DNA from: a virus
IMG/VR virus record: IMGVR_UViG_3300048835_000899
Coordinates: 1-28,779 of that record
DNA length: 28,779 bases
Strand: one strand, 5' to 3'
Below, one piece after another: positions 2,410-28,779 of this stretch. The position numbers were made by a program, and so were the translations under genes. Below the pieces are notes generated by a model, which saw only the letters and a program-made list of their open reading frames with translations, made no database searches and was not told where the DNA came from. The first letter of the stretch is position 1. Every line of letters begins with the position of its first letter.

Positions 2410-2421
2410 GAGCCCCACCCC

Positions 2422-5934: not shown

Positions 5935-5958
5935 GCTGCCACCGATTGTGTCGGCAGC
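5935..5958 (-). terminator. Possible terminator of the reverse-strand cargo gene
   Basis: GCTGCC (5935-5940) and GGCAGC (5953-5958) form a 6-bp stem with a 12-nt loop. Read on the minus strand it follows the stop of the PIN-like gene and is followed by a short TTTG. It is weak and listed tentatively. Confidence 0.3.
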
Positions 5959-5975
5959 AGGTCTGTGAGAGGTGG

Positions 5976-7154: not shown

Positions 7155-7315
7155 CGACGATCGCGTTGAGCGTCACGGGCTCCCAGTTCGGAGCCGGCAC
7201 TGGTACGGCCGGAAAGCTCCGCATTCGGTCGTTGGACCCGGTTGCTGCACCCCCCCGAAATGCTCGTCCCACCGCTGAGTGGGTTGTCGATAACGCTTCA
7301 ATCTCGGAGTGACGC

Positions 7316-8007: not shown

Positions 8008-8008
8008 T

Positions 8009-10177: not shown

Positions 10178-10192
10178 CGGGGAGGGCGAGCC

Positions 10193-11810: not shown

Positions 11811-13816
11811 TGCCGGCTGCAGTGCCGCTCATCGCTGTGGCCGCCGCCGGCATCGCCTCCGCCGCCGTCGGTGGCGGCATCATCGGTGCCGTGGTCGGCG
11901 CCGGCGCCGCCTTCATCGTCTCCGCCATCGGCCAGTCGGTCTTTCCCCAGAAGCAGAAAAAGCCAGCCAGCCTCAGCCCACAAGCGGCGGCGATCGCCGG
12001 CTTCGACGCCGGCCAGCCCGGCGCCGGCCGCACCCAGGCCTTCCGCCAGCCGGTCACCGAGCACCAGTTCGTCCTCGGCCGCTGCAAGGTCTCCGGCCCC
12101 ATCGTCTTCCTGCATTCGGCGACCGACGATGAGGGCCGCGCGGACGGTTACTTCTACTCGGTCGTCGTGCTGGCCGCGCACCGCGTGCGCGCCATCGGCG
12201 AGGTCTTCCTCGGCGACAAGGTCGAGAGCGACGGCTCGCTCGCCGGGCTGGTCCGCATCGACCGCCATCTCGGCGATTCGGACCAGGCAGCCAACGCCAA
12301 CCTCATCGCCGAGACCGCCGGGCAGTGGACCAGCGAGCATCGCGGCCGTGGCCGCGCCTATGTCGCGGTGCGGCTCAAGCTCACCGCCGAAGCGTTCCCC
12401 GCCGGCCCGCCCAACATCGCCGCCATCGTCGAAGGCGCCGACACCATCCTCGACCCACGCACCGGCAGTGTGGGCTGGTCCGACAATCCCGCCCTGCTGC
12501 TCGCCTGGTACCTCACCGCGCCCTTCGGCTGGCGCGCCTCCTGGTCCGACATCGACATCCCCGCGTTGATCGCCGCCGCCAACATCTGCGACGAACTGGT
12601 CGGCACTCGGGCCGGGGTCTACGAGCGCCGCTACACGGCCAACGGCGTACTGTCCCTCGCCGAGGGCAAGATCGCCATCACCCGCAAGCTCGCCGCCGCC
12701 ATGGCGGGCGCGCTGGTGGTCTCCGGCGGGCGGTTCTTCATCCATGCCGGCGCGCCGGCGCTGCCCGCCGCGACGCTCACCTCGGACGACCTGCGCGGCG
12801 ACGTCACCATCCAGGGCGCGCGGCCACGGCGGGATCTCTTCAACGGGGTGCGCGCCGTCTATGTCGAGCCCGCCGCCAACTGGCAGCCGACCGACGCCCC
12901 GCCGCTGCTGGCCAGCAACTACGTCGCCCAGGATGGCGGCGAGATGATCTACCGTGACCTCGAGTTCCCACTCACCACCTCGGTCAGCACCGTGCAGCGG
13001 CTGATGAAGGTCGAGCTGGAGCGCAACCGCCGCCAGCGCACCGTGGCCTTCCCCGCCAACCTCTCGGCGCTGCGGCTGCGGCCCTGGGAGGCAGCGATGG
13101 TGGCGCTCGACCGGCTGACGCCGTTCCCGGCGCGGGTCACCGCCTGGTCACTGGCGGCCGAGGGCGGTGTGGATCTCACCCTGGAGGAGGAGGACGCCGC
13201 GGTGTGGGACTGGAACCCGGCGGTCGATGAGCGCGCCACCGGCGCGAACCCCGCCGTGGTGCTGCCGAACCCGGGCGTCATCGCAGCACCCGCCAGCATC
13301 GCGGTGGAGACGCCACAGGCGACGGCCTTTGCCGTCCTGGCCGTGTCCTGGGCCGCGGTCGGCTCTTCCCATCTTGCCGGCTACCAGGTCGAGTTCCTGC
13401 CGGCCTCGGTGGCGGCCTGGCAGGGCTACGGCGGCTCCTTGGGTGCCACGGCGGCCGCCATCCCCACCGCCGAGCCGACCGGCTTCCGGGTGCGCGCGGT
13501 GGCGCGCAGCGGGGCAGTGTCGGGCTGGCGGCAGGCCCTCGTCCCCGCGGCGGTGGCGGCGCCCACGGCCACCGGCATCGTGGGCGGCATCCGTCTCTCG
13601 GGTGGGTTCCCGTCCGACGCGGTCCGTCTGCAGGTGTTCGAGGCGAGCACCAACAGCCTGGCCGCCGCCGTGAAGCTCGCGGCCGAACCGACCAGCCTCT
13701 TCTGGGACCGCACCGGCCTCACTGCCGGCGACACCCGCTGGTACTGGCTGCGCGCCGTCTCCGCCGAGGGCAACGTCTCGGCCCTGGCCGGGCCGGTCTC
13801 TGCCATCGCGCTCTGA
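11810..13816 (+). CDS. J-like tail tip / central fibre protein
   Basis: The true start is the ATG at 11810, overlapping the previous stop; the longer frame from 11327 is a shadow of upstream genes. The 668-residue protein opens with an Ala/Gly-rich hydrophobic stretch (about residues 5-42) of the kind common in tail tip proteins, followed by RQPVTEHQFVLGRCKVSGPIVF, a conserved J/tip motif. ALLLAWYLTAPFGWR and VYERRYTANGVLSL resemble hub domains. Residues about 490-665 look like two fibronectin type III repeats (AVSWAAVGSSHLAGYQVEF..., and WYWLRAVSAEGNVS). It would form the tail tip that contacts the receptor. It precedes the tailspike gene by 15 nt. Confidence 0.75.
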   Translation: MPAAVPLIAVAAAGIASAAVGGGIIGAVVGAGAAFIVSAIGQSVFPQKQKKPASLSPQAAAIAGFDAGQPGAGRTQAFRQPVTEHQFVLGRCKVSGPIVFLHSATDDEGRADGYFYSVVVLAAHRVRAIGEVFLGDKVESDGSLAGLVRIDRHLGDSDQAANANLIAETAGQWTSEHRGRGRAYVAVRLKLTAEAFPAGPPNIAAIVEGADTILDPRTGSVGWSDNPALLLAWYLTAPFGWRASWSDIDIPALIAAANICDELVGTRAGVYERRYTANGVLSLAEGKIAITRKLAAAMAGALVVSGGRFFIHAGAPALPAATLTSDDLRGDVTIQGARPRRDLFNGVRAVYVEPAANWQPTDAPPLLASNYVAQDGGEMIYRDLEFPLTTSVSTVQRLMKVELERNRRQRTVAFPANLSALRLRPWEAAMVALDRLTPFPARVTAWSLAAEGGVDLTLEEEDAAVWDWNPAVDERATGANPAVVLPNPGVIAAPASIAVETPQATAFAVLAVSWAAVGSSHLAGYQVEFLPASVAAWQGYGGSLGATAAAIPTAEPTGFRVRAVARSGAVSGWRQALVPAAVAAPTATGIVGGIRLSGGFPSDAVRLQVFEASTNSLAAAVKLAAEPTSLFWDRTGLTAGDTRWYWLRAVSAEGNVSALAGPVSAIAL

Positions 13817-13831
13817 CCTGGAGCTTCCTCC

Positions 13832-15658
13832 ATGCCCGCCCGCATCGATGACCTGCTGGTGCTCGACACCGCGGTCAGCAAGACCGATCTCGCCAAGTAC
13901 CTGCGCGACCGCGAGACGGTGCTGCCCGCCGACTTCGGCGGTCTCGGCGATGGCGTCGCCGATGATCGTGCCGCGATCCAGGGCGCCTTCGATCGTGCCG
14001 CGGCGGATGGGAAGTTCGCCGTCATCCCGCCCGGCACCTGGAACGTCGCCGCCGGCGTGGTCCTCGGCGGCGGCGCCCGCGGCCTCATCATGCACGGGGT
14101 GCTTCGCTACACCGGCACCGCCCCGGCCACCGTCCTGACGCTCGGCGATGGCGGCGCCGTCCGCAACGGCGAGAAGCACTATGCCGGGCTGCAGGTCACC
14201 CGGCAGACCCAGTCCGACTGGCTCGACGAGGCCGATATCGGCATCCTGGTGCGCAACATCGACGCCTCCGTGGTCGAGCTGCGCCTGGTCTCGGGCTTCA
14301 CCATCGGCATGCGGACGCTCGGCGACGGCCGCGGCGTCGAGGACAGTACCTTCCATCTCGGGCGCATCCTCAACAATAGGATCGGCCTCGACATCCGCTG
14401 CGCCACCGCGACCGCCTGGAACACCTCCATCCGCTACTATGGCGGCCACTTCGCGATCGCGACCGGGATCAATCCCTCGATCGACCGCTTCGGGATCCGG
14501 CTGTCCAAGGCGGACGGGGCCTACTCCAACCACAACCGGCACGTATTCGATGCGCCGAATTTCGAGCTGCGGCAGCTCGATCCCAACGTCGCCATCCCCT
14601 TCCTCAACGAGACCAGCGGCTCGGCCATCATCGGCCGGGCGCTGCGCATGGAGGCCTGCTCGCCGATCGTCGCTCGGCACACCGCCGCGGCGCAGGATTG
14701 CGAGTACGAGGTCGCCTGGTCCAACACCTACCAGGTCAGCATCGACTACACCGCGACCGCCACCCGCTGCGGCAACACCGTGCTCAACCGCCATCGGGCG
14801 CCCGCCTCGCGGCATCTGCGGCTGCTCGGGGCGGTGCCCAATGTCCGGGCCGCGGCCTTCCGCCACAGCGCGACCGAGATCGGCGTCGAGGGGCTGGCGG
14901 TGGTCGCCACCTCGACGACCAGCGCCACCACCCTCGCCGGCCTGTCCTTCAACGGGCTGGACGACATCACGCCGACCGCGCGAGGACTGTTGCTCGCCGC
15001 GCAGCGGGGGTTGGCCTTCGTGGTGGAGTGCGGGCAGGCGAAGGAGTTCGCGCTGGTCCATTCCCTCGTCGGCGGGGCGGATGGCGGACGGGTCTTCGTG
15101 CGTTGCTTCGATGCGGCGATGAACGTCCGCGAGAACGTCGCCGGTGACGCGCTGGCCTCGATCACCACGCTGCTGTGGAACATCCCGTCCAAGGCCTGGA
15201 CCGGCGGTGCCGCCATGGCCGACGCCTCCCTGAACAAGCGCATGACGGTGCGGCTCGGGCCCGGCGTCGCCTTCGCGCAGATCGGCATCGTCGGCTTCGA
15301 CGGGCAGATCGAGGTCGAGGCTGTCAGGCTATACGGCCTGCCGGAGGCCTCACCGGCGCTGCTCTGCGGCACGCCAATCCTGCCGGTCGGACAGCGGGAG
15401 TTTGCGGCGGAGGTAGCGTGGGATCTGCCCAACTGGGCGCCCGGCGCGACCAGCCTGCTCGATGTCACGGTCCCCGGCGCACGGCAGGGGGACCTTGCCC
15501 ATGCGGCGCTCGCCTCGTCGACGCGCTTCGTCGAACTCGACGCCGCGGCTTGGTCCAACAACACCGTCCGCGTCATGGCCAGGAACATCTCGCCGGCCAC
15601 CTTCGATCTCGGATCGGCGACGCTGTCAGTGCAGGTGACCAAGCGGCGCGCGCCGTGA
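13832..15658 (+). CDS. Tailspike with pectate-lyase-like beta-helix
   Basis: The 608-residue protein has, near residues 30-70, the ADFGGLGDGVADDRAAIQ...FAVIPPGTW motif of the Pectate_lyase_3 (right-handed beta-helix) domain of phage tailspikes. The N-terminal ~28 residues probably attach to the tail tip. Short hydrophobic repeats continue to about residue 330, and a separate beta domain follows (about 330-608), possibly for carbohydrate recognition. It would bind or degrade surface polysaccharide and determine host range. A TGGAG site lies 10 nt before the ATG. It ends the + strand late operon and is followed by a strong hairpin. Confidence 0.75.
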   Translation: MPARIDDLLVLDTAVSKTDLAKYLRDRETVLPADFGGLGDGVADDRAAIQGAFDRAAADGKFAVIPPGTWNVAAGVVLGGGARGLIMHGVLRYTGTAPATVLTLGDGGAVRNGEKHYAGLQVTRQTQSDWLDEADIGILVRNIDASVVELRLVSGFTIGMRTLGDGRGVEDSTFHLGRILNNRIGLDIRCATATAWNTSIRYYGGHFAIATGINPSIDRFGIRLSKADGAYSNHNRHVFDAPNFELRQLDPNVAIPFLNETSGSAIIGRALRMEACSPIVARHTAAAQDCEYEVAWSNTYQVSIDYTATATRCGNTVLNRHRAPASRHLRLLGAVPNVRAAAFRHSATEIGVEGLAVVATSTTSATTLAGLSFNGLDDITPTARGLLLAAQRGLAFVVECGQAKEFALVHSLVGGADGGRVFVRCFDAAMNVRENVAGDALASITTLLWNIPSKAWTGGAAMADASLNKRMTVRLGPGVAFAQIGIVGFDGQIEVEAVRLYGLPEASPALLCGTPILPVGQREFAAEVAWDLPNWAPGATSLLDVTVPGARQGDLAHAALASSTRFVELDAAAWSNNTVRVMARNISPATFDLGSATLSVQVTKRRAP

Positions 15659-15773: not shown

Positions 15774-16892
15774 CTAGACAACGTTCTCCCAAAACTGGGG
15801 TACGCCATTGGTGCGCATGCGCTTCAGGATCGGCCGCAACGGGATACCGCGGTTGTAGGTCCGTTGGCCGCGCCTGTCGCTTAGTGGCTCTGTGCCGTGG
15901 TGCAGGGCGGCGAGACGGAGATCAGAGGTAAACGCGGGTGATCCGGATGAGCCGGGCGTCGTATTCGCGTCGTAGCGCACACGTAGAGAGCGTGAATCGA
16001 AACCCAAGACGACGCCGGCAGCGATGCGTTGGGTACCCTCTTCCAAGTCCATTGTCTCCGCCGGATGCTGAACCACGTAGAGGATGTCTTGTGCCAGCAG
16101 CGGCGGCGGCTCGCCCGCGATGCGCAGCCAGCCTCGCTCGCTCCCGTTCGCGCCTGATGGGGCACGGCCAATTTCGCTGTCTAGCCTTACCAACGCGTAG
16201 TCAAGCTCCTCCTCGCTCGGCTCTCGCCCGCCCGCCTGCGTGTCGGATGGCGCGTGCGGCGCCTTGTCGACGCACCATCCCTCCGCGAGGCCCACGCTTG
16301 GACCACCTGCGCCCCCCTGTGTCGAGAGACGGTCGAAGCGGCAGACCACGGCGCCGCGCTCCAACTTACCCTGCGCAATCCGATCCACTACGTGATGGTT
16401 GGTCAGCATCAGGTCCGGGCCGACCAGGAAGCCAGTCCCGATCTGCGGATTCTCCTCCCTGTTGTCACGGAGGCCAATCCAGCAGACTGCGCGGGAGATG
16501 GCCTGCATCCGCTCGATGAGGGACTTCATGGGCAATAGTGGATGACGCCGGCGGACGAAGTCCTGCAACGCCCCGTCAGTCGGCGTAGCCAGGGGCGGAG
16601 GCGCAGGAGGCGGCGGTGGTAGCGGAACGAGGCCCAAGGAAGCCGCGACCTCCTTGAGCGGCACGGACAGCCGTGCGCCGGACATTGTAGCCCGCACAAA
16701 CTGCTCTATCCATTCCTGCCCTTCGGCAAGCTGGATGGCTTGGCCGAACACCGTTCTTTTTCCGGCGAGCATGTTGATGTCGTCGGCAAGATTGACGCCA
16801 GTCTTGATCCAAATGGCACTCGAGAGGCTCTCGGACGTGAGATACGCGCCGAGGAGAGCTTTCAACAGCCTCTCACGTTCTTCGTCGCTCAT
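15774..16892 (-). CDS. EAD1-linked trypsin-like serine protease
   Basis: The 372-residue protein starts at the ATG at 16892 with AAAAGG upstream. Residues 1-88 match the helical effector-associated domain EAD1: RERLLKALLGAYLTSESL, an IKTGVNL block, then VFGQAIQLAEGQEWIEQFV. A proline linker (91-100) leads to a trypsin-like domain (about 130-372) with a complete triad: H167 in LTNHHVVD, D231 in ELDYALVRLD, S316 in PGSSGSPAF. There is no signal peptide, so it should be cytoplasmic. EAD1 domains mediate homotypic contacts that bring effectors to STAND or other sensors in bacterial conflict systems. The nearby nSTAND1 operon holds a second EAD1 protein, its likely partner. It is the second gene of a leftward pair, 43 nt behind the other protease. 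Confidence 0.85.
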   Translation of the reverse strand: MSDEERERLLKALLGAYLTSESLSSAIWIKTGVNLADDINMLAGKRTVFGQAIQLAEGQEWIEQFVRATMSGARLSVPLKEVAASLGLVPLPPPPPAPPPLATPTDGALQDFVRRRHPLLPMKSLIERMQAISRAVCWIGLRDNREENPQIGTGFLVGPDLMLTNHHVVDRIAQGKLERGAVVCRFDRLSTQGGAGGPSVGLAEGWCVDKAPHAPSDTQAGGREPSEEELDYALVRLDSEIGRAPSGANGSERGWLRIAGEPPPLLAQDILYVVQHPAETMDLEEGTQRIAAGVVLGFDSRSLRVRYDANTTPGSSGSPAFTSDLRLAALHHGTEPLSDRRGQRTYNRGIPLRPILKRMRTNGVPQFWENVV

Positions 16893-16935: not shown

Positions 16936-18195
16936 CTATGTCCACCGCATCGCTGCGGCTTGCTCGATCTCCCGACCGCCGCGCAGTGCCGGCACCGCTG
17001 CGAGCACATGTGCATAGTTCTGCAGAAGCCATTGGCCGCCCATGTGCAGCGCCAGGACGGGCAACCTGCCGTCCTCATCACTCTGCAGCATCGCTACCGG
17101 CGATCCCGAGTTGCCGCCAAGAGTCGTCGCGTCGTGTCCAAGAGCCCATGCCGGCTCGGCATCGCCCGCAACCGTTCCAAGGCGTCGATCTACGCGTCCG
17201 AGCGCTAGGCGCTTCACTTCGTATTGGAACCTGAAGATGCGTTCGAGCGCCGCGAGGACCTCTGGTTCAATACGGCCGTCTGCGGAGCGAGGCAGCCGCG
17301 ATGGCTTGGCGGGATACCCGACGATAGCGAGGTCTCGCCGTCCCTGTGCGGCCCCACTGTTGGACACGAGGGGAAGGGGCAGCGGCAACGCCGCATTCTG
17401 CGCGTTCCGCTCATCTACTGTCAGCAGCGCGAGGTCGAGCTTGCGAAGGTCTACGGTCTCGCCGATTTGCGCAGGCCCCGCGAATGCGACCCCCGTGATG
17501 CGGAAGGCGAACCTCTCGTGAGCTCCGAGCTCCGCTTTGAAGTCAACTTCGACGCGTCCCGCGAATTCCCAGCCACCAGCCCCCGAGGGGTCGAGGACCA
17601 GCGCCTCCAGCACATGGCGGTTGGTCATCAGCAGGGCTGGCGCCACCAACAGGCCAGTGCCGGTGTGTTGGCCGTCGAGCTCGATCCGCCCGACCGAGCG
17701 GATCACCTCCGGGATGCGGGGCCCAGCGACCGCCAGCGCGTCGGCCCAGTACTCGTCGATCTCCGGGTCGTCCGGGTCGAAAGTGCCGTTCTGCACGAGA
17801 AGCGCGGGGCGGCCTTTGGTGCGCACTAGCGCCTCCAAGGCGAACACGTCACGGCCGTCGAGCCGCGCGCCCGTCGGGTCGCGCGTCGCCTTTTCCAGCG
17901 CCCGCTCGGCGTCGCCCAGCACCTGCTGGCGCAGGCGCAGCGTCTCCAGGTCGGGAGCGCCGACACCACGATCCCCGGCCGCGAAGCGGCGCTGCAGTCG
18001 ATCCACCAGCTCTCGGATGGTGGGCCGCAACGCGCGAGCCGCCTCGGATGCAGCTTCGCCGGCGCTCACACTCTCCAGCGCGCTGCCGATGGCGCTGTGC
18101 CCAAGAATACGCAGATAGGCGGAGGCGGCACGGCCGCGCTCGTCCCGACGGTTGCTGGTGCCGGTGGAGCCGACAGCCGAAGAGATTTCTTCCAT
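16936..18195 (-). CDS. Trypsin-like serine protease with unassigned helical N-terminal region
   Basis: The frame is open from 18291, but the first 32 codons are AT-rich and not protein-like; the ATG at 18195 (MEEISSAVG) gives 419 residues and is preferred, though its ribosome binding site is weak. Residues about 20-165 are helical and charged (RELVDRLQRR, LRLRQQVLGDAERALEKA) and do not match EAD1. The protease domain has H194 in LMTNRHVLE, D254 in RKLDLALLTVD and S363 in LGGNSGSPV, an intact triad. No signal peptide is seen. It is the first gene of the leftward pair, facing away from the lysozyme-STAND operon across a short shared promoter region. It may be activated by, or process, partners in the same island. 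Confidence 0.8.
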   Translation of the reverse strand: MEEISSAVGSTGTSNRRDERGRAASAYLRILGHSAIGSALESVSAGEAASEAARALRPTIRELVDRLQRRFAAGDRGVGAPDLETLRLRQQVLGDAERALEKATRDPTGARLDGRDVFALEALVRTKGRPALLVQNGTFDPDDPEIDEYWADALAVAGPRIPEVIRSVGRIELDGQHTGTGLLVAPALLMTNRHVLEALVLDPSGAGGWEFAGRVEVDFKAELGAHERFAFRITGVAFAGPAQIGETVDLRKLDLALLTVDERNAQNAALPLPLPLVSNSGAAQGRRDLAIVGYPAKPSRLPRSADGRIEPEVLAALERIFRFQYEVKRLALGRVDRRLGTVAGDAEPAWALGHDATTLGGNSGSPVAMLQSDEDGRLPVLALHMGGQWLLQNYAHVLAAVPALRGGREIEQAAAMRWT

Positions 18196-18244
18196 CGGAT
18201 GGAAAGGTAGATCACATCGATCGCGATTTCGAAACGAAAAATGT

Positions 18245-18273
18245 TTGACACAGTATGTCGGTGCGTGTGGAAT
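18245..18273 (+). promoter_or_regulatory. Candidate sigma70-type promoter of the lysozyme-EAD1-nSTAND-RiPP operon
   Basis: TTGACA (18245-18250), a 17-nt spacer and TGGAAT (18268-18273) fit a sigma70 promoter, with transcription expected near 18280 and a leader of about 105 nt. The AT-rich divergent gap (18196-18385) between the leftward protease and rightward operon is the logical control region. Confidence 0.45.
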
Positions 18274-18385
18274 GCAGAAGAATTCGACCATTCATACCAG
18301 AATTGCGCTTGGGCGTGGCTAGGAAGTATTCGGTCTAGGGCCGAAGACTGAAATTTGCACGCAGCCGTGTATAGAGGTCCTCAGC

Positions 18386-20302
18386 ATGGATACGAACGCG
18401 CGCGCAAAATCGCTGAGCTTCGAGGAAATTCTCGACATTGCGTGCGCCGATGAGGACGCTGCCATCGCATCCACGACCGCTCGCGCCGACGACGTAGCAG
18501 CCGAGGTAGAGCTAGCCCAGCTTGAGCGGCCCGCGCTGCCCGGCGCGCCGAGCGAGACACAGGTCTCGGCGTCCGCAGCCGCCTTAGTCATCGCGTTTGA
18601 GGTGACCAGCCAGTCCGTCTACGAACGGCGCTACCGCGCGCCCATCTGGCCCCACGGCGCCTCGGGCGTCACCATCGGGATCGGGTATGATCTCGGCTAC
18701 GTGGACGCGGCGACCTTGGAGGAGGACTGGGGCGGCAGCCTCGAGCCGAGTGTGATCTCGCGCCTCGCGCGCGCCTGCGGCGTGAACGGCGAGGCAGCCC
18801 GCGATCTTGTTAAGGATTTCGCAGACATCTCGGTGCCATGGACTGAGGCGGAGCACGTATTTCGCACCAGGACGCTGCCGCTCTACACGGGTACCACCGA
18901 GCGGGCGCTGCCAAACACCAAATTGCTCAACGGCGACTGCCTCGGCGCCCTCGTCTCTCTCGTTTACAATCGCGGTACCTCCTTCCGGCGAGAGGGAGAT
19001 CGCTTCCGCGAGATGCGGGCGATTCGCGATCACATGCAGAGCGAGAACTTCGCCGCAATCCCGGGCGAACTGCGCGCAATGCGGAGACTCTGGCAGGACG
19101 TCCCGAACATGGCGGGCCTGCTGCGGCGCCGCGAGGCTGAGGCGGCGCTGTTCGAGCGCGGACTGGAGACCATGTTTGCTCCTTCCGGCGTCAGGGCGAA
19201 TGCGATTGCCGAGAAGGCGCCGCCCTTGCGGAGCATCGAAACCGCTGCGGCGGAGCGAGGGGGCGGCTGGTTATTGGGTTGGCTGCGGTCGGTGGTTGAG
19301 GAGCCTACGCGTGATCGGGTCTTCGCGGAGATCGGGCCGCCTGCAGGAAGGCCTGAAACGGGGGTGGAGATCGAGCCCGACACGAGCTACGTGGCCCTGC
19401 GGGTCCTCGCGGCCCGGATCGTCAACGCCCGCAGATGGACGAGCCGCTATCACGCTGCCGTGCATGCGCGCTGCGACATGATCTACGAGGGCGGAACTGG
19501 GCGAATCGAACGGCAGGCAGTGCTCGCGCCAGACGGCTTCCGAGATATCGATCCCGGTGGGCAGGGCAAGCTGCTGCAGATCGATCGGCCTGTTTTCGGC
19601 CCTGCGCCCTATAGGGGCGACCTGCGTCTGTCGCTAGGGCTGTTCTCTGTGAAGTCTAGTGATTTGGCAGGGCCCTACCTGACGCTATTAAGCCAACTGG
19701 CCGAGACGAGCGCTCTCGGCTTTCTCAAGGCAGCCGAAGCGTACGTCGCACCGCTACGTAGTGCGGCCGAGCTTCTTTTCGGCACGTCGGGCGCGGCAGA
19801 TCTCGAGTGTGGTGTCGTTCGGGGCTTCAATCCGCTTAGGACCGGAGTTTGGGTATCGATGGGCGCGCCTCGGGAGCAGGTGCCGGAGCCTGGGAGGCTG
19901 CGCCTCGATCCAAGCGACTTCCGTTTGCTCTGGCCCGACGGCCGGGCAGTCGTTGATCATCCATATGTTGTGTTCTCAGTCGAGCGAGCATCTCAGCGCG
20001 AGGATTGGTTGGCGGTCCCAGATCTGCGCGATGCTTGGGAAGCGGTACGAACCGCGGTTCACGTGCGCGGTGATGGTACAGAGGCACGCGCTGCCCTTGC
20101 GGCGTTCCGGCGCGTGTGTTTGACGAGCCCTGACTTGATTGGAAGCGACGCCAAACGTCTGGTGCGCCGCGCCGAAGAGCGCTTCGCCTTCGCCACTCAG
20201 GGCGCTGGAAGTGGCGAGTTGGAAAGCCCGGCGCCACCAACACTGGCGCTGCGTCGCCTGGGATCGTTCGCAGACCTCGACCTATATGGCCGGCGTCGAT
20301 GA
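18386..20302 (+). CDS. Pesticin/T4-lysozyme-like domain protein with uncharacterised C-terminal region
   Basis: The 638-residue protein starts at an ATG with GAGG 9 nt upstream. After an acidic N-terminus (1-58), residues about 62-262 resemble pesticin/T4-type muramidases. Residue E72 lies 7 residues before Y79, matching the E11-Y18 spacing of T4 lysozyme. Next come GVT96-IGIGYDLG, LNGDCLGALVSLVYNRG (182-197) and the closing LLRRREAEAALFERG. E72 and T96 fit two of the three catalytic positions. Residues 280-638 are unrecognised. There is no signal peptide, so either it is exported by another route or the fold acts inside the cell. It is the first gene of the STAND operon and overlaps the next start by 4 nt. 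It could be a wall-damaging effector or a peptidoglycan-fragment sensor. Confidence 0.7.
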   Translation: MDTNARAKSLSFEEILDIACADEDAAIASTTARADDVAAEVELAQLERPALPGAPSETQVSASAAALVIAFEVTSQSVYERRYRAPIWPHGASGVTIGIGYDLGYVDAATLEEDWGGSLEPSVISRLARACGVNGEAARDLVKDFADISVPWTEAEHVFRTRTLPLYTGTTERALPNTKLLNGDCLGALVSLVYNRGTSFRREGDRFREMRAIRDHMQSENFAAIPGELRAMRRLWQDVPNMAGLLRRREAEAALFERGLETMFAPSGVRANAIAEKAPPLRSIETAAAERGGGWLLGWLRSVVEEPTRDRVFAEIGPPAGRPETGVEIEPDTSYVALRVLAARIVNARRWTSRYHAAVHARCDMIYEGGTGRIERQAVLAPDGFRDIDPGGQGKLLQIDRPVFGPAPYRGDLRLSLGLFSVKSSDLAGPYLTLLSQLAETSALGFLKAAEAYVAPLRSAAELLFGTSGAADLECGVVRGFNPLRTGVWVSMGAPREQVPEPGRLRLDPSDFRLLWPDGRAVVDHPYVVFSVERASQREDWLAVPDLRDAWEAVRTAVHVRGDGTEARAALAAFRRVCLTSPDLIGSDAKRLVRRAEERFAFATQGAGSGELESPAPPTLALRRLGSFADLDLYGRRR

Positions 20303-21660
20303 CTGAGCCATTCGAAGACTCTGAGGCGCTCGATGAAGCCACGCGCCTGGCTTTGTACAACGCCCTCATGGACAGTATTGAGAATCCGAAGCGCTTAGCC
20401 GTCGCCATATACTTCAGGACGAATTTTCGCCTCGAGGATGAGGTGAGGATTGATAACGCGAAGTCTGTAGTGATCGGCGACGTGATCAAACTCGCTGTCG
20501 GGCAGAGGTGGGTTAGTAAGCTTATCCTTGCAGCGCTTGATGCGGCTCCGGCTAGTCTGCCGATACAGTCCGTCGCGGGGAAGCTAAGGGTCTGCTGGAC
20601 GCCAAGAGCCGTCGACAGCGAGCCTGAGGCGTCATCTTCCGACGCTGCCCGCCATCAGATCGACGGTAGCGCGAATCCGCCTCCAGCCCCGCCGGAGCGA
20701 AAGTGCTTGCTGCTGTTGGGTCACCCGACAGCCGGCGCTGCTTCAAAGCCAGTCAGCGAAGCTTCCGCTGAGCTCGAACGGATTGTGGCCGCCCGCGGGG
20801 TAAGCATCGATAAGACTGGTGACGGTTGGACCGCCATTGCGGATCCGAGCAGCCAGAGCCCTGCACTCACGTCGACTCAAGCGGCAAGGGCAATCGTTGT
20901 TCAGCCAGCAGCGGCACGAGAAGCGGTATCTTGGGCTCAGTCTGAAGCTATTGGGTTTCGCGACGATCTGTCTAGTGTGATCCAAAGTAGCGATAGAGGC
21001 ACCGCGGCATGGCGGCCAAGCCGCTTTATTATCTGGGTTCCCAAGACGCTAGACCATCCGAAACTTGGCCCATGCCTTGGGCCGCGGGCCGACGGCTTGG
21101 AGTTCATCCACGCCGACCCAGGGGGAATGGCTAACCTCATTGAGCCCCAACCATCGACAGATAAGCCGCTCCTGACGATGGAAGAGAGTTATGACGATGG
21201 CTTCGTTCTCCGTGAATCGCTTCGGGAAAGGGTCGCGACAATCGTGCACGCTGCCATCTCTGTCTCACCCAGTCTGCAGTGGTGGGAGGGTGGTGCGATG
21301 CTCGCCAGCCAGATTAGGGCCAGAACTCCCCGGAGAGTTATCGTCGTAGCGCATGATTTGAACGTGAAACCGACGTCCGATCTTGTTAGTGAGCTGCGCA
21401 GCAAGCTCGCGGCGATCACCGACAAGATCCGCGCCGCCGATGCTACTGACCGTCAACCCCCAACGCGGATCTTTGGGGCCGGTCTCCTACATCTCACGCG
21501 CGATCACCATCCCTACAATGAATACGCGCGACCCACCGATTTGCCCGAATGGCGCTTCCTCCATCTCGAAGGAACGCCGGAGGCGATGATGCCCGTTGCG
21601 GATTATGAGCGTGGCTTTCAGAATCGTCTGAGAGCTTGGTGGTTCGGTAAGTCACCCTGA
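20299..21660 (+). CDS. EAD1 adaptor protein with unassigned C-terminal region
   Basis: The ATG at 20299 overlaps the previous stop (ATGA), giving 453 residues. Residues about 8-98 match EAD1: EATRLALYNALMDSIENP, AVAIYFRTNFRLEDE, VVIGDVIKLAVGQRWVSKLI, closely paralleling the EAD1 of the protease at 15774-16892. From about 133 the protein looks alpha/beta (KCLLLLGHPTAG, RFIIWVP, RRVIVVAHDL strands), but I cannot name a family; a TIR-like or caspase-like fold is conceivable, and no catalytic motif is evident. It may be a sensor, adaptor or effector that links EAD1 partners to the STAND protein encoded immediately downstream, whose ATG overlaps this stop by one base. Confidence 0.75.
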   Translation: MTEPFEDSEALDEATRLALYNALMDSIENPKRLAVAIYFRTNFRLEDEVRIDNAKSVVIGDVIKLAVGQRWVSKLILAALDAAPASLPIQSVAGKLRVCWTPRAVDSEPEASSSDAARHQIDGSANPPPAPPERKCLLLLGHPTAGAASKPVSEASAELERIVAARGVSIDKTGDGWTAIADPSSQSPALTSTQAARAIVVQPAAAREAVSWAQSEAIGFRDDLSSVIQSSDRGTAAWRPSRFIIWVPKTLDHPKLGPCLGPRADGLEFIHADPGGMANLIEPQPSTDKPLLTMEESYDDGFVLRESLRERVATIVHAAISVSPSLQWWEGGAMLASQIRARTPRRVIVVAHDLNVKPTSDLVSELRSKLAAITDKIRAADATDRQPPTRIFGAGLLHLTRDHHPYNEYARPTDLPEWRFLHLEGTPEAMMPVADYERGFQNRLRAWWFGKSP

Positions 21661-24600
21661 TGAGCTCCTCGCCGCACCAAGAGGATCGGGCCGCGGGTGT
21701 TGCTGACCCAATGGCGCGCATGCTCGAGGCGTTTGACCGTCTTCAAAAAGGCGAATCGTTGCACGACGGAGGCGCACGATTGCCCCCGCGGCCCTATCCC
21801 GGGTTGCGCAGCTTTACACCAGCAGAAGGCGACGTCTTTTTCGGTCGCGAACGAATGCTGCGCTTGGTTCGGGAAGAACTCGCTGCGAAGCGCCTGCTTT
21901 TTGTCATTGGCGGATCGGGTTCGGGCAAGTCGTCGCTCGTCCGCGCTGGAATCATGCCGCGCCTGACCGGTGCCGACCGCATCCCGGGCCGAACAGGAAA
22001 CTGGTATGCTGCCGAATTTCGGCCTCGAACAGCGCCGATGGAGGAACTGGCCACCAGCTTGGGGGATCTGATAGCCGAGGAGTTTCCGGATCAATCGGGC
22101 GGTCGAGATCTCGACGCCGCGCCGGAAGGTGATGCAAAGCAGCGCGCGAAGGCGGCTCGCGACAGATTTATGGCGAACTTCTGTGTAGAGTCGGGCGCGC
22201 GCGCTGACATCAGCCCGGCAAGACGCTTGCTGGACTTTGTACTGAACGAGTTGAATGAGCGGGATGCGAGACTAACGCGCGGCTTCCGCTCCGGCAGGCC
22301 CAATCTGCTGCTCGTTATTGACCAGTTCGAGGAGGTATTCCGACCGGAGGTTGAGCTACTGGGACCGGCCGGATCAAGATCCCTGCACGAGATGCTCGTT
22401 GAACTGCACGAGCATCTGGCCGTCGAAAACAGGACGCTGGGTGACAAAAGCCCGCGCGGTGCCGGCGGGCTCTACGTTATCGCGACGATGCGGAGCGAAG
22501 AGTACCATCGTATTGCCGATCATCCCGGCCTAGCCCGCGTTGCAAACAGCGGCAACTTCATGATCGACTTGTTCGATCCCGGAAGCGAGGCATCAGCATC
22601 CGCCGCGCAAGACAGCGACGACCTGCGAGCCGCGATTGTCAGTCCGGCTCGGCGAGTCATGGTTGGGTGGGGGCTCGGTAGTGAAGCGCAACATGGACAA
22701 CAGGACTGGCCATTTGACCCGGACGCGGTAACTGAGCTGCTTGAAGCGGCTAGGCTGCTTTCGATGGGCATCGGACACAGGCCGGATGTGCTCCCGCTTT
22801 TGCAGCACGCGCTGCGCGTGTGGTGGGAAAAGGCCGTCGAAAGCTGGCGCGGAGCCGGTGCCGTGACCACTCCGCTCTTAGCCACCGCGATACTTCAAGG
22901 CGGTGGCACGGCCGGTGCTGAATCCGCGGTTGATCTCGTCGCCTGCTTGGAAAGCGGTGCGAATGAAGCCGCGCTCAAGGCCAAACATGCGTTTGTCCGA
23001 GTGCTTGGGTCCGACAAAGACGGCTCGACCGATGTACTAGCTGAGGCAGCTCTGCAGGCAATCTTCCGTGCGCTGGCCAGGGTGGATGATCGAGGTAACC
23101 TGGCGCGACGGTTCGCAGACTCAGCCGCGATCGCCGAATACTTGATCGCGGACCTGGAGGGGCGGCGCCTGGCGGTTCCGGAGGGATCGCGCATTCTCGC
23201 TGCGCTGGATGCCGCACTGAGGCAACTCAGCGACTACGGGTACATTGCGGGCGGAGAGTTGGTCGATGGCAGGCAGCGGCCTTGGGACATCTCTCACGAG
23301 GCTCTGCTGCGGAACTGGTCGCGGTGCCGCACTTGGCTCGCGGCGCCGATTGAGGCGGCGCGAGCGCTGGAGAGCATTGCGCAGCAGGCTCCCGCATTGC
23401 CACCCGACGCATCCCCGTCGGTATTGCGTTCGTCTGTGTCGAAATCCCTCATCTCAGCCCTCAAGACGGCCGTCGGGGATCGTCCAACCCTGCCGCAAGC
23501 CTGGACCGATCTGCAGCTTGAGGGGCTCCTGGCCCGTTCTGAAGTTGCTCGCTCATGGGGGGTCTCGCGTGCATCGCGCGACGATGTCGCTAATGTCCGA
23601 ACGCGCATTGAGACAACAGTCAGGTCTGCGGAGGTGGCGCACCGACTGGCGGATGATGAAAAAGCGGCTAGCGAGGCACGCGCCGATTGGCAAAAGCGTC
23701 TGATCAAGCTCGGCAAGATAGCTGGCGCAGCACTCCTCCTCGCTGCCGGCTTCAGCGGGTATCAGTGGTTAGAGGCGCGAGGCGCACACAAACAAACGCA
23801 GCGCATTCTTGAAAATAGTGTCGCGTATGGCCTTACGACTGCGGCGGTGCCCGCGCGTGCAGGCGAGTGGCCGCCGGTGCTGCTGGCTTACGTTCTCCTC
23901 GGAGCGGACCTGCTGCACGACGATCGCTTTAGAAACATGTTCGAGTTCCGTGATTTGCCAGAGCGGCAGCGGATAGCACGAAGTGACTGGGATTGGGCTG
24001 CACGTTCAGTTCTCGGGTTTAGATACCGTCTGATCGGGGCCACGGAATTTGGCAATACCCGCACGCCGGAGAGAACAGGCCGCCTCTTCTGCGTTACGCC
24101 GAGTAAGGACGATAGCCCTGAAAATTGGGGGCAGGCAGTCGCTTCCCTACCGCTCCCAAGTTCGCAAGGAAGCCAGTATGCGGGCGTGCGACTCAGCCAA
24201 GAAAGCCTGCTGCTCGGAACACGCGTCCGCAGCGGCGAGTCATTTCAGGCCGCTCGAACGGATTTTGGCATCCTAGTCACGCAGCAAACCAGAGCATGCC
24301 TCTCAGAGAATGGCACGCTTTTAGTGGTCGCCCAACCAAACAACCCCAAACCTGAGCTATATGAGCTACAATGGACGCCGTGCCCCGGCCAGCGCGAGTG
24401 CGATAGTGATCAAAATGGCGGACAGCTACATGCACGCTTCATCCCGGTGATCGCGGGCGCGAACGCTGGTTGGGAGCCCCCGCAGGGCAGCTTTCCGTGT
24501 GCTGTTTCGGTCGCCTACTACAGTGTGCCTGCCGATCCGGAGTATGGCGCTATCTCGGCGGCCTCGGAAGCATCTCTGGTTAGAATTAGCTTCGACCCGC

Positions 24601-25358
24601 GCCTCGACGGTGTGCCTTGCGACATCGTTGGAGCCATGCGCTCAGCTTTGGACGCGCGGAGTGTAGAGCTGGCGCCGACTATGTGGAAAGCGATCGAGGA
24701 GGCGACCTCGTTCAACACTCAACAACCCTTCGACATAGGGGCGGTGCGGAGAATGCTGAGTGCACGCGGTGTCAGCCTGCCGGCCGCCGCTTGGGAAGTT
24801 TTAGAAGAGCTTTCGGCGCGACGTTTCATTCTGGAGTACTATCAGGGCGTTTTCGGCTTTCGATCCCCACAAGTCAGCCGAGCACAACCCGGCCGGCCAG
24901 CCCAGCCAAACTGCGGCCAACCCAGCACAGTGGAGCCTGGATCGGCTAATCCAAGGCGCACCTGCGAGGTGCGCATTCCGGACCGACTTGGCGGCGGTAC
25001 AGCTAGGGCATTCGCGTATGTCGCGCCCGCTCCAGATAACCACCTGCGCATAGAATTGATACAGCCAGATGCTACGCGATTTTTCGTAGGCCTGTTACGC
25101 ATACCGAGTGCTGATATTAATTATGCTTGGATTGATGAGCTTTCTGGCGACTTAATCGTTGAAGACAGCCGCTCTGGCCAATTGTGGCGGATCCTCGCAG
25201 ATCAACGCGCCCTAGCCCGCCTCATGCGACTCAGAGCCTGCGACTCCCCGAATCAGGCCTTGCAATCACCTGCACTATTTGCTGGAATGCCGCCGAGGCG
25301 TGAACTGTGTCAGCGACTGGGGACCCCTAGTTCGCCGTCTCCACAGAGCCCGCCGTAG
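21660..25358 (+). CDS. nSTAND1-type signal-transducing NTPase with transmembrane helix
   Basis: The ATG at 21660 overlaps the previous stop. The 1232-residue protein opens its core with PYPGLRSFTPAEGDVFFGRE (residues 45-64), the nSTAND1 entry signature. Walker A follows, GGSGSGKSS (84-92, K90), then Walker B LLLVIDQFEE (217-225, D221), MRSEEYHRIA (278-287) and SHEALLRNW (about 545-553) at the end of the winged-helix region. A helical linker leads to one membrane segment at about 684-704 (GKIAGAALLLAAGFSGYQWL). The remaining ~525 residues, predicted periplasmic, carry no WD40 or TPR repeats that I can see and would be the sensor. STAND NTPases switch on by ligand-induced oligomerisation. EAD1 proteins nearby are its likely recruits. 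The RiPP precursor starts 14 nt after its stop. Confidence 0.85.
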   Translation: MSSSPHQEDRAAGVADPMARMLEAFDRLQKGESLHDGGARLPPRPYPGLRSFTPAEGDVFFGRERMLRLVREELAAKRLLFVIGGSGSGKSSLVRAGIMPRLTGADRIPGRTGNWYAAEFRPRTAPMEELATSLGDLIAEEFPDQSGGRDLDAAPEGDAKQRAKAARDRFMANFCVESGARADISPARRLLDFVLNELNERDARLTRGFRSGRPNLLLVIDQFEEVFRPEVELLGPAGSRSLHEMLVELHEHLAVENRTLGDKSPRGAGGLYVIATMRSEEYHRIADHPGLARVANSGNFMIDLFDPGSEASASAAQDSDDLRAAIVSPARRVMVGWGLGSEAQHGQQDWPFDPDAVTELLEAARLLSMGIGHRPDVLPLLQHALRVWWEKAVESWRGAGAVTTPLLATAILQGGGTAGAESAVDLVACLESGANEAALKAKHAFVRVLGSDKDGSTDVLAEAALQAIFRALARVDDRGNLARRFADSAAIAEYLIADLEGRRLAVPEGSRILAALDAALRQLSDYGYIAGGELVDGRQRPWDISHEALLRNWSRCRTWLAAPIEAARALESIAQQAPALPPDASPSVLRSSVSKSLISALKTAVGDRPTLPQAWTDLQLEGLLARSEVARSWGVSRASRDDVANVRTRIETTVRSAEVAHRLADDEKAASEARADWQKRLIKLGKIAGAALLLAAGFSGYQWLEARGAHKQTQRILENSVAYGLTTAAVPARAGEWPPVLLAYVLLGADLLHDDRFRNMFEFRDLPERQRIARSDWDWAARSVLGFRYRLIGATEFGNTRTPERTGRLFCVTPSKDDSPENWGQAVASLPLPSSQGSQYAGVRLSQESLLLGTRVRSGESFQAARTDFGILVTQQTRACLSENGTLLVVAQPNNPKPELYELQWTPCPGQRECDSDQNGGQLHARFIPVIAGANAGWEPPQGSFPCAVSVAYYSVPADPEYGAISAASEASLVRISFDPRLDGVPCDIVGAMRSALDARSVELAPTMWKAIEEATSFNTQQPFDIGAVRRMLSARGVSLPAAAWEVLEELSARRFILEYYQGVFGFRSPQVSRAQPGRPAQPNCGQPSTVEPGSANPRRTCEVRIPDRLGGGTARAFAYVAPAPDNHLRIELIQPDATRFFVGLLRIPSADINYAWIDELSGDLIVEDSRSGQLWRILADQRALARLMRLRACDSPNQALQSPALFAGMPPRRELCQRLGTPSSPSPQSPP

Positions 25359-25372
25359 TTGGAGGGGTCCTC

Positions 25373-25576
25373 ATGCTACCCATTGCAAGTGCGCTGCTTG
25401 TTGCGGGCCAATGCGTCTCGGGTGCTTCTGGCTTGTCTTCCGAGCCGGCGATCGCCAGATTGGATGCTATTCGCAGCGCCGTTCTCATCCGTGCGAGCGA
25501 TCGGGCATTCGAGCCGCTCCGAGTTGGCGTGTGTGACACGCGCCCATTAATTTTGGGGCAATTCAGAAACGGCTGA
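25373..25576 (+). CDS. Putative cyclophane RiPP precursor peptide (GrrA-like layout)
   Basis: The 67-residue peptide has GGAGGGG 8-14 nt before its ATG. It starts with a hydrophobic, signal-peptide-like stretch (MLPIASALLVAGQCVSGASG), then a helical segment (IARLDAIRSAVLIRASDR, about 27-44) and a short C-terminus ending LGQFRNG. F-R-N fits the aromatic-x-Asn pattern that GrrM/OscB-type radical SAM enzymes crosslink into three-residue cyclophanes. Known GrrA-type substrates share the layout of signal peptide, helical part and aromatic-x-Asn core but usually have several motifs in a Gly-rich tail; here there is one. The maturase gene begins 28 nt after its stop. The small size leaves room for a chance frame, but position and ribosome binding site argue for a gene. 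Confidence 0.6.
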   Translation: MLPIASALLVAGQCVSGASGLSSEPAIARLDAIRSAVLIRASDRAFEPLRVGVCDTRPLILGQFRNG

Positions 25577-25579: not shown

Positions 25580-25597
25580 CCCCCCCCTCCCCCCCCC
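25580..25597. repeat. Poly-C tract (C8-T-C9) in the maturase leader
   Basis: Eight Cs (25580-25587), one T and nine Cs (25589-25597) fill the gap between the precursor stop and the maturase ATG at 25605. On the other strand this is a G8-A-G9 run. Length changes would alter spacing before the start codon, and no other ribosome binding site is visible. Confidence 0.9.
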
Positions 25598-25604: not shown

Positions 25605-26795
25605 ATGGACAAGTCTAGGACCCTGGCCGGCCAGCAGATCGAGCCGAGTGCGCATCTCGTCGGTGTGACGCGTTTGCTGGTGCTTCAGGGAACTCCCTTT
25701 TGCAATATCGACTGTACATACTGTTATCTGCCTGACCGACGTTCTACACGACGAATGTCGCTAGAGGTTGTAAGCGCCGCTATAGATTGGATTTATGAGT
25801 CGAGGCTTGCGGCGAACCCGCTTGAGGTTCTTTGGCATGCGGGTGAGCCGCTTACGATCCCCTTGGCGTGGTACCGCTCCGCGATTGACCTCGCCGACGC
25901 CAGGAAGCCTTCTGGCGCTCGCATCATTTATTCTCTTCAATCGAATGGGATGCTTTTAGATCAGGCTTGGTGCTCCTTCTTCAAGGAGAAGGCGATCAAT
26001 TTAGGAATCAGTTTAGACGGTCCAGAATGGCTGCACGACGCGCACAGGAAAACTCGCGCTGGGAGAGGAACATACCGCCGCGTTGTGGATGCGGTTGCTG
26101 GGCTGCAGAGCCACAATGTTCCGTTCAAGGTTATTTGTGTGATTTCACGAGAATCGCTGCGCGCTCCCGAAGAAATCATCGATTTTTTTGGCGAATTAGG
26201 CGTGAAGATCCTGTGCCTAAACATCGAAGAGCGTGAAGGAGCTAATGAAACGTCTAGTATGGATTTCCCCGGAGCTCGTGCGCAGGTTTCTGAATTCTTT
26301 GACCGGGCTCTGAAAAGGGCACATCGATATCCGTGGCTAATTATACGCGAGCGAGATTCTCTGGTGTCTTGGCTTCATCACGAAGAATTTGGCTTGGTCC
26401 ACGGCAATGAACAGAATTTGCCGCTGCGCATTCTCACTGTGGCGGATGATGGTTCTTTGTACACATTTTCTCCGGAACTAGCAGGCATGAAACATCCAAC
26501 CCTTGGGAAATTGTCAATTGGTAATGTGCTAAGTTGCTCAGTGACCGACATAATACAGTCGCCACGGTATCTAGCAATGGCAGCAGAAGTAAAGGCCGGA
26601 GTTGACGCATGCAGTCGCTCTTGCCGGTATTTTCGCCTTTGTCGGGGCGGCGCACCCGCAAACAAAGTTGCTGAGCATGGGACTTTCAACGCGACAGAGA
26701 CGCTTCATTGCGCGCTTTCTGAACAGACTGTCGCCGACGCGGTTCTGCGCGGACTCGAGATGTCGCTGAGTAGCACTCCGGAGACTTTGCTGTAG
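25605..26795 (+). CDS. Cyclophane-forming radical SAM/SPASM peptide maturase (GrrM/OscB-like)
   Basis: The 396-residue protein has the radical SAM cluster motif C33-x3-C37-x2-C40 in TPFCNIDCTYCYLPDR, and the following RRMS matches the GrrM/OscB family closely. The C-terminal SPASM region has C336, C340 and C346 in CSRSCRYFRLCRGG, then NKVAEHGTFNATETLHC with C369, ligands for an auxiliary iron-sulfur cluster. The enzyme would use S-adenosylmethionine to join an aromatic side chain to a nearby beta-carbon in the precursor. The start at 25605 lacks a clear ribosome binding site because the C-tract precedes it; the ATG at 25601 is out of frame. The gene is visibly richer in AT than the phage genes. 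It is the last gene of the operon. Confidence 0.85.
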   Translation: MDKSRTLAGQQIEPSAHLVGVTRLLVLQGTPFCNIDCTYCYLPDRRSTRRMSLEVVSAAIDWIYESRLAANPLEVLWHAGEPLTIPLAWYRSAIDLADARKPSGARIIYSLQSNGMLLDQAWCSFFKEKAINLGISLDGPEWLHDAHRKTRAGRGTYRRVVDAVAGLQSHNVPFKVICVISRESLRAPEEIIDFFGELGVKILCLNIEEREGANETSSMDFPGARAQVSEFFDRALKRAHRYPWLIIRERDSLVSWLHHEEFGLVHGNEQNLPLRILTVADDGSLYTFSPELAGMKHPTLGKLSIGNVLSCSVTDIIQSPRYLAMAAEVKAGVDACSRSCRYFRLCRGGAPANKVAEHGTFNATETLHCALSEQTVADAVLRGLEMSLSSTPETLL

Positions 26796-27224: not shown

Positions 27225-27305
27225 AGTGCAAACTGTTGATCCGACCCCAACCTTACAATCAACGAATTGCAGCACCGCCGCAGGTATTTCAGAGACCGGA
27301 TCGAC

Positions 27306-28004
27306 ATGGACGACAAAGACCACGTCTTCGCCCGCTTCAAGGACGACAAGCCGGCGTCAGCTGATCGGCGAGAGACGCTGACCATCCCCCGACGCGCCGG
27401 CGCACCGGGAAGCAGGTCCGTTGAGGTGGTGCATGTGCGATCGGGCGGTGCTGTGAGAGACAGGCCGCAGCGCCAGGACCAGTATGTTCGCGCGGCCTCG
27501 TGGGACGGTGGCTTTCCGACGAAGCAGCCATCTCGGGCACCAATGCCGACCCTGCCGGAGGCTCCTGAAGCCGCAGAGCCGGTTACCCACGTCATGCCTG
27601 CCTGGGAGCCAGCGGCGACGGAGGCTGATGCGGCCCCGGTTGAGGAGCCTGTCGTCTCGGCACGTCGGGGCCGAGGGCGGCCTCGCAAGCATCCGGTTGG
27701 GGAGCCCGTGTCGGCACCGGCTGAGACAGCGCAAGTTGAAGAGCCTGCGACGCCGCGCTGGGGCCGCGGGCGGCCTCGGAAGTTGGTAGCGGCAACGGCC
27801 GGCGCAGCGCCCGCTGAGGAGCCTGTCGTCGAAGCAGGCCATGACCCAGGGCGGCCTCGCAAACAGCCGGCCAGCGCGCCGACAAGGCGCGTCGCTGACC
27901 CGTTCAACGCCTCCGACGACGGCGCGAACTGCATGCGCTGCGGCTACGCGATCGAGTCTGCGCGCGAGAAGCGTGGGATGATGACGTGCCTCTCTTGCGA
28001 GTAG
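27306..28004 (+). CDS. AT-hook protein with C-terminal zinc ribbon
   Basis: The ATG at 27306 (MDDKDHVFAR) gives 232 residues; a TTG at 27267 in the same frame is less likely. Three AT-hook motifs occur: RGRGRPRKHP (121-130), GRGRPRKL (153-160) and PGRPRKQP (181-188). They are separated by Ala/Pro/Glu-rich linkers that look duplicated (EEPVV recurs at 113-117 and 171-175). The C-terminus has C209-x2-C212 and C228-x2-C231, a likely zinc ribbon. AT-hooks bind the minor groove of AT-rich DNA, so the protein is probably a nucleoid-associated or regulatory factor, perhaps silencing AT-rich acquired DNA. It may be an ordinary host gene rather than part of the island. Confidence 0.7.
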   Translation: MDDKDHVFARFKDDKPASADRRETLTIPRRAGAPGSRSVEVVHVRSGGAVRDRPQRQDQYVRAASWDGGFPTKQPSRAPMPTLPEAPEAAEPVTHVMPAWEPAATEADAAPVEEPVVSARRGRGRPRKHPVGEPVSAPAETAQVEEPATPRWGRGRPRKLVAATAGAAPAEEPVVEAGHDPGRPRKQPASAPTRRVADPFNASDDGANCMRCGYAIESAREKRGMMTCLSCE

Positions 28005-28248
28005 GTCGCGCATCCAGACATTGGCTGGGAACTGCAGGTCCGCCTTGAACACCTTGGACATAAAGGCGGACCCCCCGCACAAACGGCTCCGAGGGTTCGG
28101 CTTCAAGTGCTTTAGTGCCAACGAGAGATCCACCGTAGTGGCCGCCACCGAGCCGCCAGCGGTTCCCCCGAAGAAGCCGTGACAGGTTTCCGATTGCACT
28201 ATGCTCCTAGCGAGGCAAGATTGGGGAACCTCTAAAACAGGGACAACT

Positions 28249-28779
28249 TTGCAGATTTTTAAGATCATCCAGGTCGGGGACGTCCATTACACCGACTTAG
28301 AGAACACGACATCGCCGGTCGACAACAAGGATCCAGGCTTTCCCGGCGCCTTGTCCGCAGCAATCGGCACTACTCCACTACAGTCGATCTTTCGCGCTGT
28401 TGCGAGATGTATAGAGGAAGAAGGCCCCGAAGTGGTGGCCTTCATGGGTGATTTCACCAACCGCGGCGACACTCAAGGCTTGAATGACTGCCTCAACTAT
28501 CTACGCGGGCTTTTCCCTACAAACTGGGGGCCTGGATCGGCACCGACATGTCAACTCCTCATCGGCAACCATGACGTTGACCGAAAGAAGGACCCGGAAA
28601 CGGAAGACCGCTACCACGACATTAACGTGGCCATCCAGAACGCAGGTTTCCCGTGCGCCAGCGTCCTTCAACCCGAAGAGCTGGTTTTTGGCGAAGCGTC
28701 CGCGGCCGAGCTTCGCGTGTATGGCATCAACAGTTCCCGAGGGTGTGGTCAGGTGCGCCTCCTCGGCGGATTGCTGGCC
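28249..28779 (+). CDS. Calcineurin-like metallophosphoesterase, N-terminal part (runs off window)
   Basis: The frame is open to the right edge, giving 177 residues. The TTG at 28249 is preferred as start because AGGGA lies 5-9 nt upstream and the product then begins directly with the first strand (QIFKIIQVGDVHY). The in-frame ATG at 28201 would add 16 residues but has no site. Metal-binding motifs in order are V-G-D-V-H (residues 9-13), M-G-D-F-T-N-R-G-D and I-G-N-H-D-V-D, the D-x-H / G-D-x5-G-D / G-N-H-D set of calcineurin-like phosphoesterases that bind two metal ions. Substrate cannot be told; family members cleave phosphomonoesters, phosphodiesters, nucleotides or DNA. It might belong to another defence module, since such enzymes occur there, but the rest lies outside. 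Confidence 0.75.
   Translation, partial: MQIFKIIQVGDVHYTDLENTTSPVDNKDPGFPGALSAAIGTTPLQSIFRAVARCIEEEGPEVVAFMGDFTNRGDTQGLNDCLNYLRGLFPTNWGPGSAPTCQLLIGNHDVDRKKDPETEDRYHDINVAIQNAGFPCASVLQPEELVFGEASAAELRVYGINSSRGCGQVRLLGGLLA

Follow-up and report, generated by a model that had tools for sequence, protein, structure and literature searches.

A single-motif candidate triceptide precursor encoded between an nSTAND1 gene and a GrrM/OscB-family maturase gene in a virus record

Introduction

What is the function of a 67-codon open reading frame (ORF) placed between a STAND gene and the gene of a radical S-adenosylmethionine (SAM) enzyme? The question is raised by the IMG/VR virus record IMGVR_UViG_3300048835_000899, whose positions 1 to 28,779 (28,779 nucleotides, hereafter the window) carry such a frame at 25373-25576. 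The original prediction for this locus took the frame for the precursor of a ribosomally synthesised and post-translationally modified peptide (RiPP) with one C-terminal Phe-Arg-Asn motif. Our results indicate that the frame and the enzyme gene downstream of it very probably, on the evidence of their homologies, form a precursor/maturase pair. As a whole, the reading of a minimal triceptide precursor that receives an OscB-like cross-link and is involved in the STAND system appears reasonably likely to us, an estimate that does not extend to a role of the peptide as a ligand.

Results

The peptide gene and its maturase

The frame translates to MLPIASALLVAGQCVSGASGLSSEPAIARLDAIRSAVLIRASDRAFEPLRVGVCDTRPLILGQFRNG, with LGQFRNG at the C-terminus. 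The elements needed to follow the analysis are these:

25373..25576 (+): precursor peptide gene, 67 aa (ORF call, leader profile, joint motif, codon usage)
25361..25367 (+): Shine-Dalgarno-like GGAGGGG, 5 bases 5' of the ATG (sequence)
residues 1-12 of the window peptide: hydrophobic start
residues 27-38 of the window peptide: conserved leader helix IARLDAIRSAVL
25562..25570 (+): Phe64-Arg65-Asn66 (TTC AGA AAC), predicted Phe C4 - Asn C-beta cyclophane site (sequence; chemistry by analogy with OscB/XncB)
25605..26795 (+): GrrM/OscB-family radical SAM/SPASM maturase, 396 aa (TIGR04261, PF04055, cysteines, tree)
21660..25358 (+): nSTAND1 NTPase, 1232 aa (PF20703 5.8e-51, NTPase homology)

As had been predicted, the frame has a good ribosome-binding site and lies between the STAND gene, whose end at 25358 is 14 bases from the peptide ATG, and the maturase gene, which starts at 25605 after a gap of 28 bases; the Phe-Arg-Asn triplet was also correctly placed one residue from the end. 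The codon usage of the peptide frame scored +0.171 per codon, compared with 0.03 to 0.25 in 67-codon stretches of the maturase itself, and the remaining five frames at 25373-25576 all fell below it (-0.22 to +0.09). A second IMG/VR contig (L011, also G002), which matches the window at 99.98% across 21.5 kb, carries the peptide and the maturase without any difference, which makes an isolated error of assembly improbable.

Between the peptide stop and the maturase start lies a C8-T-C9 homopolymer tract (25580-25597), identical in the second contig. The tract could have an effect on translational coupling or be slippage-prone; in relatives of the G001 type, described below, the precursor and maturase genes overlap, unlike the window with its spacer. 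We rejected an extension of the core past the stop by read-through or frameshift, as nothing motif-like follows 25576 and the C-tract is 3' of the stop.

A leader profile covering an 18-residue helix, R[LI]xx[IL]R, was built from 13 precursors encoded beside other GrrM-family genes. It placed the window peptide at the top of 244 window ORFs (E 0.001; runner-up 0.05), with a score that exceeded those of 20,000 shuffles of the same peptide. The leader motif together with an aromatic-x-Asn triplet at most three residues from the C-terminus was found in 2 of 94,574 ORFs from random DNA of matched base composition, and in the window and the STAND-linked loci scanned the ORF preceding the maturase was in each case the only one to carry this joint motif. 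A smaller full-leader profile also ranked the window peptide first, yet at 8 bits, with some shuffles scoring higher, which is not significant. When the peptide was aligned pairwise with those of its relatives only the G288 precursor gave a significant result (34/5000 shuffles), and a direct peptide search of the relatives' genomes returned just weak matches at unrelated places because the peptide is too divergent; the motif and the profile were used instead.

The maturase reached 359.2 bits against TIGR04261, the NCBI model for GrrM/OscB (cut-off 310), and contains CxxxCxxC at residues 33-40 (Cys 33/37/40) as well as SPASM-type cysteines at 336/340/346/369. It remained beneath the cut-offs of the AmcB, FxsB, XyeB and YhhB models, the second-best family being the AmcB cyclophane maturases (NF041718; 322 bits, cut-off 425). 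Apart from the near-identical contig, our searches of viral and phage collections returned distant radical SAM enzymes only. The leader profile, the rarity of the joint motif and the maturase score over the GrrM/OscB cut-off bear out the prediction of a RiPP precursor next to its maturase.

OscB and XncB are reported to cross-link a Phe (C4) with the Asn two residues further on (C-beta; i and i+2; PMC11002830), and by analogy with them we consider it likely that a Phe-Asn cyclophane is formed at Phe-Arg-Asn. The final triplet of the G288 precursor (FRN-F) also has Arg as its middle residue. Two further features had been proposed for the peptide. The signal-peptide-like start is indeed hydrophobic (best 12-residue hydropathy mean 2.05), but it has no Lys/Arg n-region, unlike those of the STAND-linked relatives, which are basic. 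Cys14 and Cys54 are present, but a role for them found no support, as neither has a counterpart in these relatives, and a Cys-based modification was rejected.

Conservation and linkage to nSTAND1

The nearest maturases found belong to four Rhizobiales loci, G001, G288, G1180 and G1182 (~45% identity to that of the window for G001 and G288), and the gene order nSTAND1 - precursor - maturase occurs in all five loci. In G001 (Rhizobiales bacterium Y(2018)) the cassette consists of a TIR gene, a gene for TIR plus a shared domain (see below), nSTAND1, a 79-residue precursor ending in DWPNWTNWGNG, the maturase and a patatin gene; the cassette order is identical in its family members G1180 and G1182, whose precursors end in WTNWGNG and WTNWGN. 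In G288 the order is trypsin, shared domain, nSTAND1, a 94-residue precursor (end FPNFRNF) and maturase. Each of these three close relatives has the patatin-like phospholipase gene directly 3' of its maturase gene (L006:7207-8361, L041:10296-11450, L042:10221-11381); G001, G1180 and G1182 differ in this from the window and G288, where no such gene was found 3' of the maturase.

Beside these homologous maturases both the peptide and its C-terminus are conserved: four of the four nearest relatives share the RLxxIR helix and terminate at, or one residue past, an aromatic-x-Asn triplet (WGN-G, WGN-G, WGN and FRN-F). Their precursors hold three to eight such motifs, and the single motif of the window sits where the relatives' motif arrays start, which fits the minimal version originally proposed. 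The precursors of G001, G1180 and G1182 are under purifying selection, with a ratio of nonsynonymous to synonymous substitution rates (dN/dS) of about 0.16-0.22; in them the helix AIDRLPEIRAVLR and the core DWPNWTNWGN are invariant while the signal and linker parts vary.

The five STAND-linked enzymes formed one clade (support 99/99.8) when 22 maturases were placed in a tree, a result in keeping with the association having been gained once. By tblastn, nSTAND1 was present in 5/5 STAND-linked loci, compared with 0/15 for the other GrrM loci within the DNA searched, which for two of the 15 covers ~1.5 kb on each side only; the five loci had been picked up as closest relatives and are not a random sample. 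We found no report of a GrrM-nSTAND1 pairing in the literature searched, which lacked most subscription journals.

The window STAND protein passed PF20703 (174.7 bits, gathering score 27.1). It comprises the NTPase (residues 45-577), a likely membrane helix at ~680-705 and a weakly conserved C-terminal region. The five nSTAND1 proteins are homologous across the NTPase (31-34% between lineages), and their C-terminal regions, past the membrane-helix-like stretch, are weakly alike (alignment A6). Three STAND proteins were tested with a simple hydropathy cut-off for this stretch; two passed, the window protein not being one of them.

Two other GrrM loci deserve description. At L009:5977-7225 a Competibacter GrrM-like gene is in two frames, with a transposase-like ORF nearby and no clear precursor. 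At L030:7071-9179 a GrrM gene on a Streptomyces plasmid adjoins lantibiotic-dehydratase and LanC-like genes, and the 262-residue protein encoded upstream of it is unlike a GrrA precursor.

Surrounding genes

The peptide gene lies in prophage-linked DNA. The window, a virus record, has head and tail genes at 1-15658, followed by the STAND/peptide cargo, which includes:

15774..16892 (-): EAD1-like domain + trypsin-like peptidase, 372 aa (PF13365 8.8e-15; EAD1 20.3 bits, cut-off 24.2)
16936..18291 (-): trypsin-like peptidase, 451 aa, divergent from the operon (PF13365 1.3e-10)
18386..20302 (+): lysozyme/endolysin-like effector candidate, 638 aa (phrog_28234 endolysin 1.1e-6; Phage_lysozyme 0.0011, below cut-off)
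20299..21660 (+): EAD1-like domain + shared uncharacterised C-terminal domain (EAD1 18.0 bits, PF19955 gathering score 24.2)
shared 'LLLGHP' domain: window 20680-21657; L026:12231-13208; L041:4376-5365; L042:4382-5362; L027:5560-6570

The shared 'LLLGHP' domain is encoded just upstream of nSTAND1 in the five loci and is fused to EAD1-like or TIR domains; BLAST between lineages gave 3.6e-6 and 2.1e-6, and the domain is also aligned in A5. It matched no Pfam family, and its structural model was poor (predicted local distance difference test, pLDDT, 50), with nothing below E 0.1 and no significant match in Foldseek; over 68 positions its sequence weakly resembles an amidase chain (E 0.00017). The 451-aa trypsin-like peptidase matched PDLC03010, a model of the PADLOC 'nacht' set, at 1.1e-36.

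Downstream of the maturase, 27267-28004 encodes a predicted protein with repeated GRPRK (AT-hook-like) motifs and no Pfam match, followed by a phosphoesterase gene. The region 28201-28779 is continued in L011:8597-11865, where a calcineurin-like phosphoesterase (434 aa) precedes an ORC-CDC6-like ATPase (PF24389, 7.8e-61); these two are possibly a second defence-type pair adjoining the STAND cassette.

Discussion

The sequences show the pairing of the precursor with its maturase and the inherited linkage of both to nSTAND1. How the locus relates to known systems depends on the part compared. It resembles the GrrA/OscA1-GrrM/OscB triceptides (TIGR04260/TIGR04261) in a maturase over the cut-off, in the order of precursor and then maturase, and in having both the RLxxIR leader helix and an aromatic-x-Asn triplet. 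Unlike GrrA/OscA1 precursors, the window peptide fits no precursor model (TIGR04260 gave no match at E <= 1, as was also the case for the precursors of two STAND-linked relatives), and it has a single motif, FRN, without a Gly-rich multi-motif tail. The operon further contains nSTAND1 and EAD1-like/trypsin genes, and nSTAND1 was not found in the 15 other GrrM loci searched.

A second group of likenesses is with conflict systems described by Kaur et al. 2020 (PMC7159879). There, SPASM radical SAM enzymes accompany FxSxx peptides in VMAP ternary systems, and the processed peptide is proposed to be a toxin or a signal amplifying the core conflict system. These FxsA/FxsB modules resemble the window in that a short precursor with one aromatic motif at its C-terminus goes together with a radical SAM enzyme of the SPASM type and a conflict system built on a STAND/AP-ATPase, but the window motif is FRN rather than FxS, its maturase scored 84.5 bits with TIGR04269 against an FxsB cut-off of 370, and no VMAP, vWA, MoxR or zincin peptidase gene was identified in the cassette. 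In the same paper, System 3 (trypsin/NucA), mostly from alphaproteobacteria, is described with EAD1, trypsin, lysozyme and STAND parts, and the window likewise brings together an EAD1-like trypsin, a second trypsin, a lysozyme-like protein and a STAND NTPase. No NucA-type nuclease was seen among the window proteins scanned, a subset of the ORFs, and the window differs in having the peptide/radical SAM pair, which is absent from the section on System 3. A GrrM-type enzyme with nSTAND1 does not occur in the passages of the paper that were consulted. Peptide-processing modules are already described there for other conflict systems.

The order conserved in five loci suggests a place for a modified peptide within immune-type signalling of bacteria, and we think it probable that the peptide is part of the function of the STAND system. 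Homology shows the leader helix to be the segment conserved in the leaders of GrrM-type precursors, and the enzyme whose gene begins 28 bases downstream to be its maturase. If OscB chemistry applies, this enzyme would join Phe64 C4 to Asn66 C-beta, and the C-terminus would become 2 Da lighter. The modified peptide may then be exported or held at the membrane through its hydrophobic N-terminus, weak in the window and clear in the relatives, and would act in a response run by the probably membrane-anchored nSTAND1. Given these steps, we lean slightly towards a ligand or licensing signal over a killing agent, because the cassettes hold effector-type domains of their own (in the window trypsin and lysozyme, in relatives TIR and patatin) and because no immunity or transport gene was recognised in them. 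The more specific proposal that the crosslinked peptide serves a membrane-anchored STAND immune receptor as its dedicated ligand or licensing factor, with the cyclophane controlling the firing of the NTPase and of its EAD1- or TIR-linked effectors, is tentative and on balance unlikely.

Several observations weigh against the main reading, that of a minimal triceptide precursor in an operon governed by a STAND NTPase. The window peptide can be confidently aligned to its relatives only at the leader helix and the C-terminus, it has one motif compared with three to eight in the other four, and the missing basic n-region could speak for an eroding copy. The one near relative of the window peptide is identical to it and offers no differences from which selection could be estimated. 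The arrangement occurs in three independent lineages only, G001, G1180 and G1182 being close kin. No peptide-dedicated peptidase or exporter was identified, and the model of the STAND C-terminal part (pLDDT 35) is too poor to show a sensor outside the membrane.

What, then, are the alternatives? The peptide could be a genuine GrrM-type precursor from which an exported toxin, antibacterial or anti-competitor, is made as a further effector of the STAND system. Kaur et al. 2020 treat toxin and signal as equal options for the peptides of related systems (PMC7159879), Sec-like starts are found in precursors of the STAND clade, and some radical SAM cyclophane peptides, among them darobactin and dynobactin, are antibiotics (PMC11002830). 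We nevertheless find this somewhat improbable, considering that the five cassettes already have effector-type domains, that no immunity gene, dedicated protease or transporter was recognised in them, and that a single three-residue C-terminal ring offers little antibiotic scaffold.

Erosion of the precursor, with loss of the motif array and signal peptide and a maturase that hitch-hikes or has another substrate, would account for the missing motifs and n-region, and the C8-T-C9 tract right after the stop is in its favour. Against it, the frame is intact, with host-like codon usage, a good ribosome-binding site and a fully kept leader helix; the stop lies one residue past the motif, as in G001/G1180; no remnant motifs were seen in the sequence read 3' of the stop; and the maturase is intact with the expected cysteines. 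Erosion is for us an improbable explanation. Of the two ways to read the single motif of the window copy, that one ring suffices or that the copy is eroding, the intact maturase, the intact leader and the stop position favour the former. Finally, 67-residue ORFs are common in GC-rich DNA and ORFs in other frames overlap this one, but the rarity of the joint motif in random ORFs and the positional and leader homology in four more loci already contradict a chance ORF between the STAND and maturase genes, which we regard as highly improbable.

To our knowledge, most triceptides have no known function, and the triggering of bacterial STAND proteins is known for few. If the peptide is a ligand or licensing factor as proposed above, the operon would itself supply a 'self' or alarm peptide that carries a chemical modification, and the window copy would be the smallest such signal, with one Phe-Arg-Asn ring. 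A conserved operon that couples a triceptide and a STAND protein would offer one testable system for both questions, and the single-motif precursor would be the simplest substrate for an assay.
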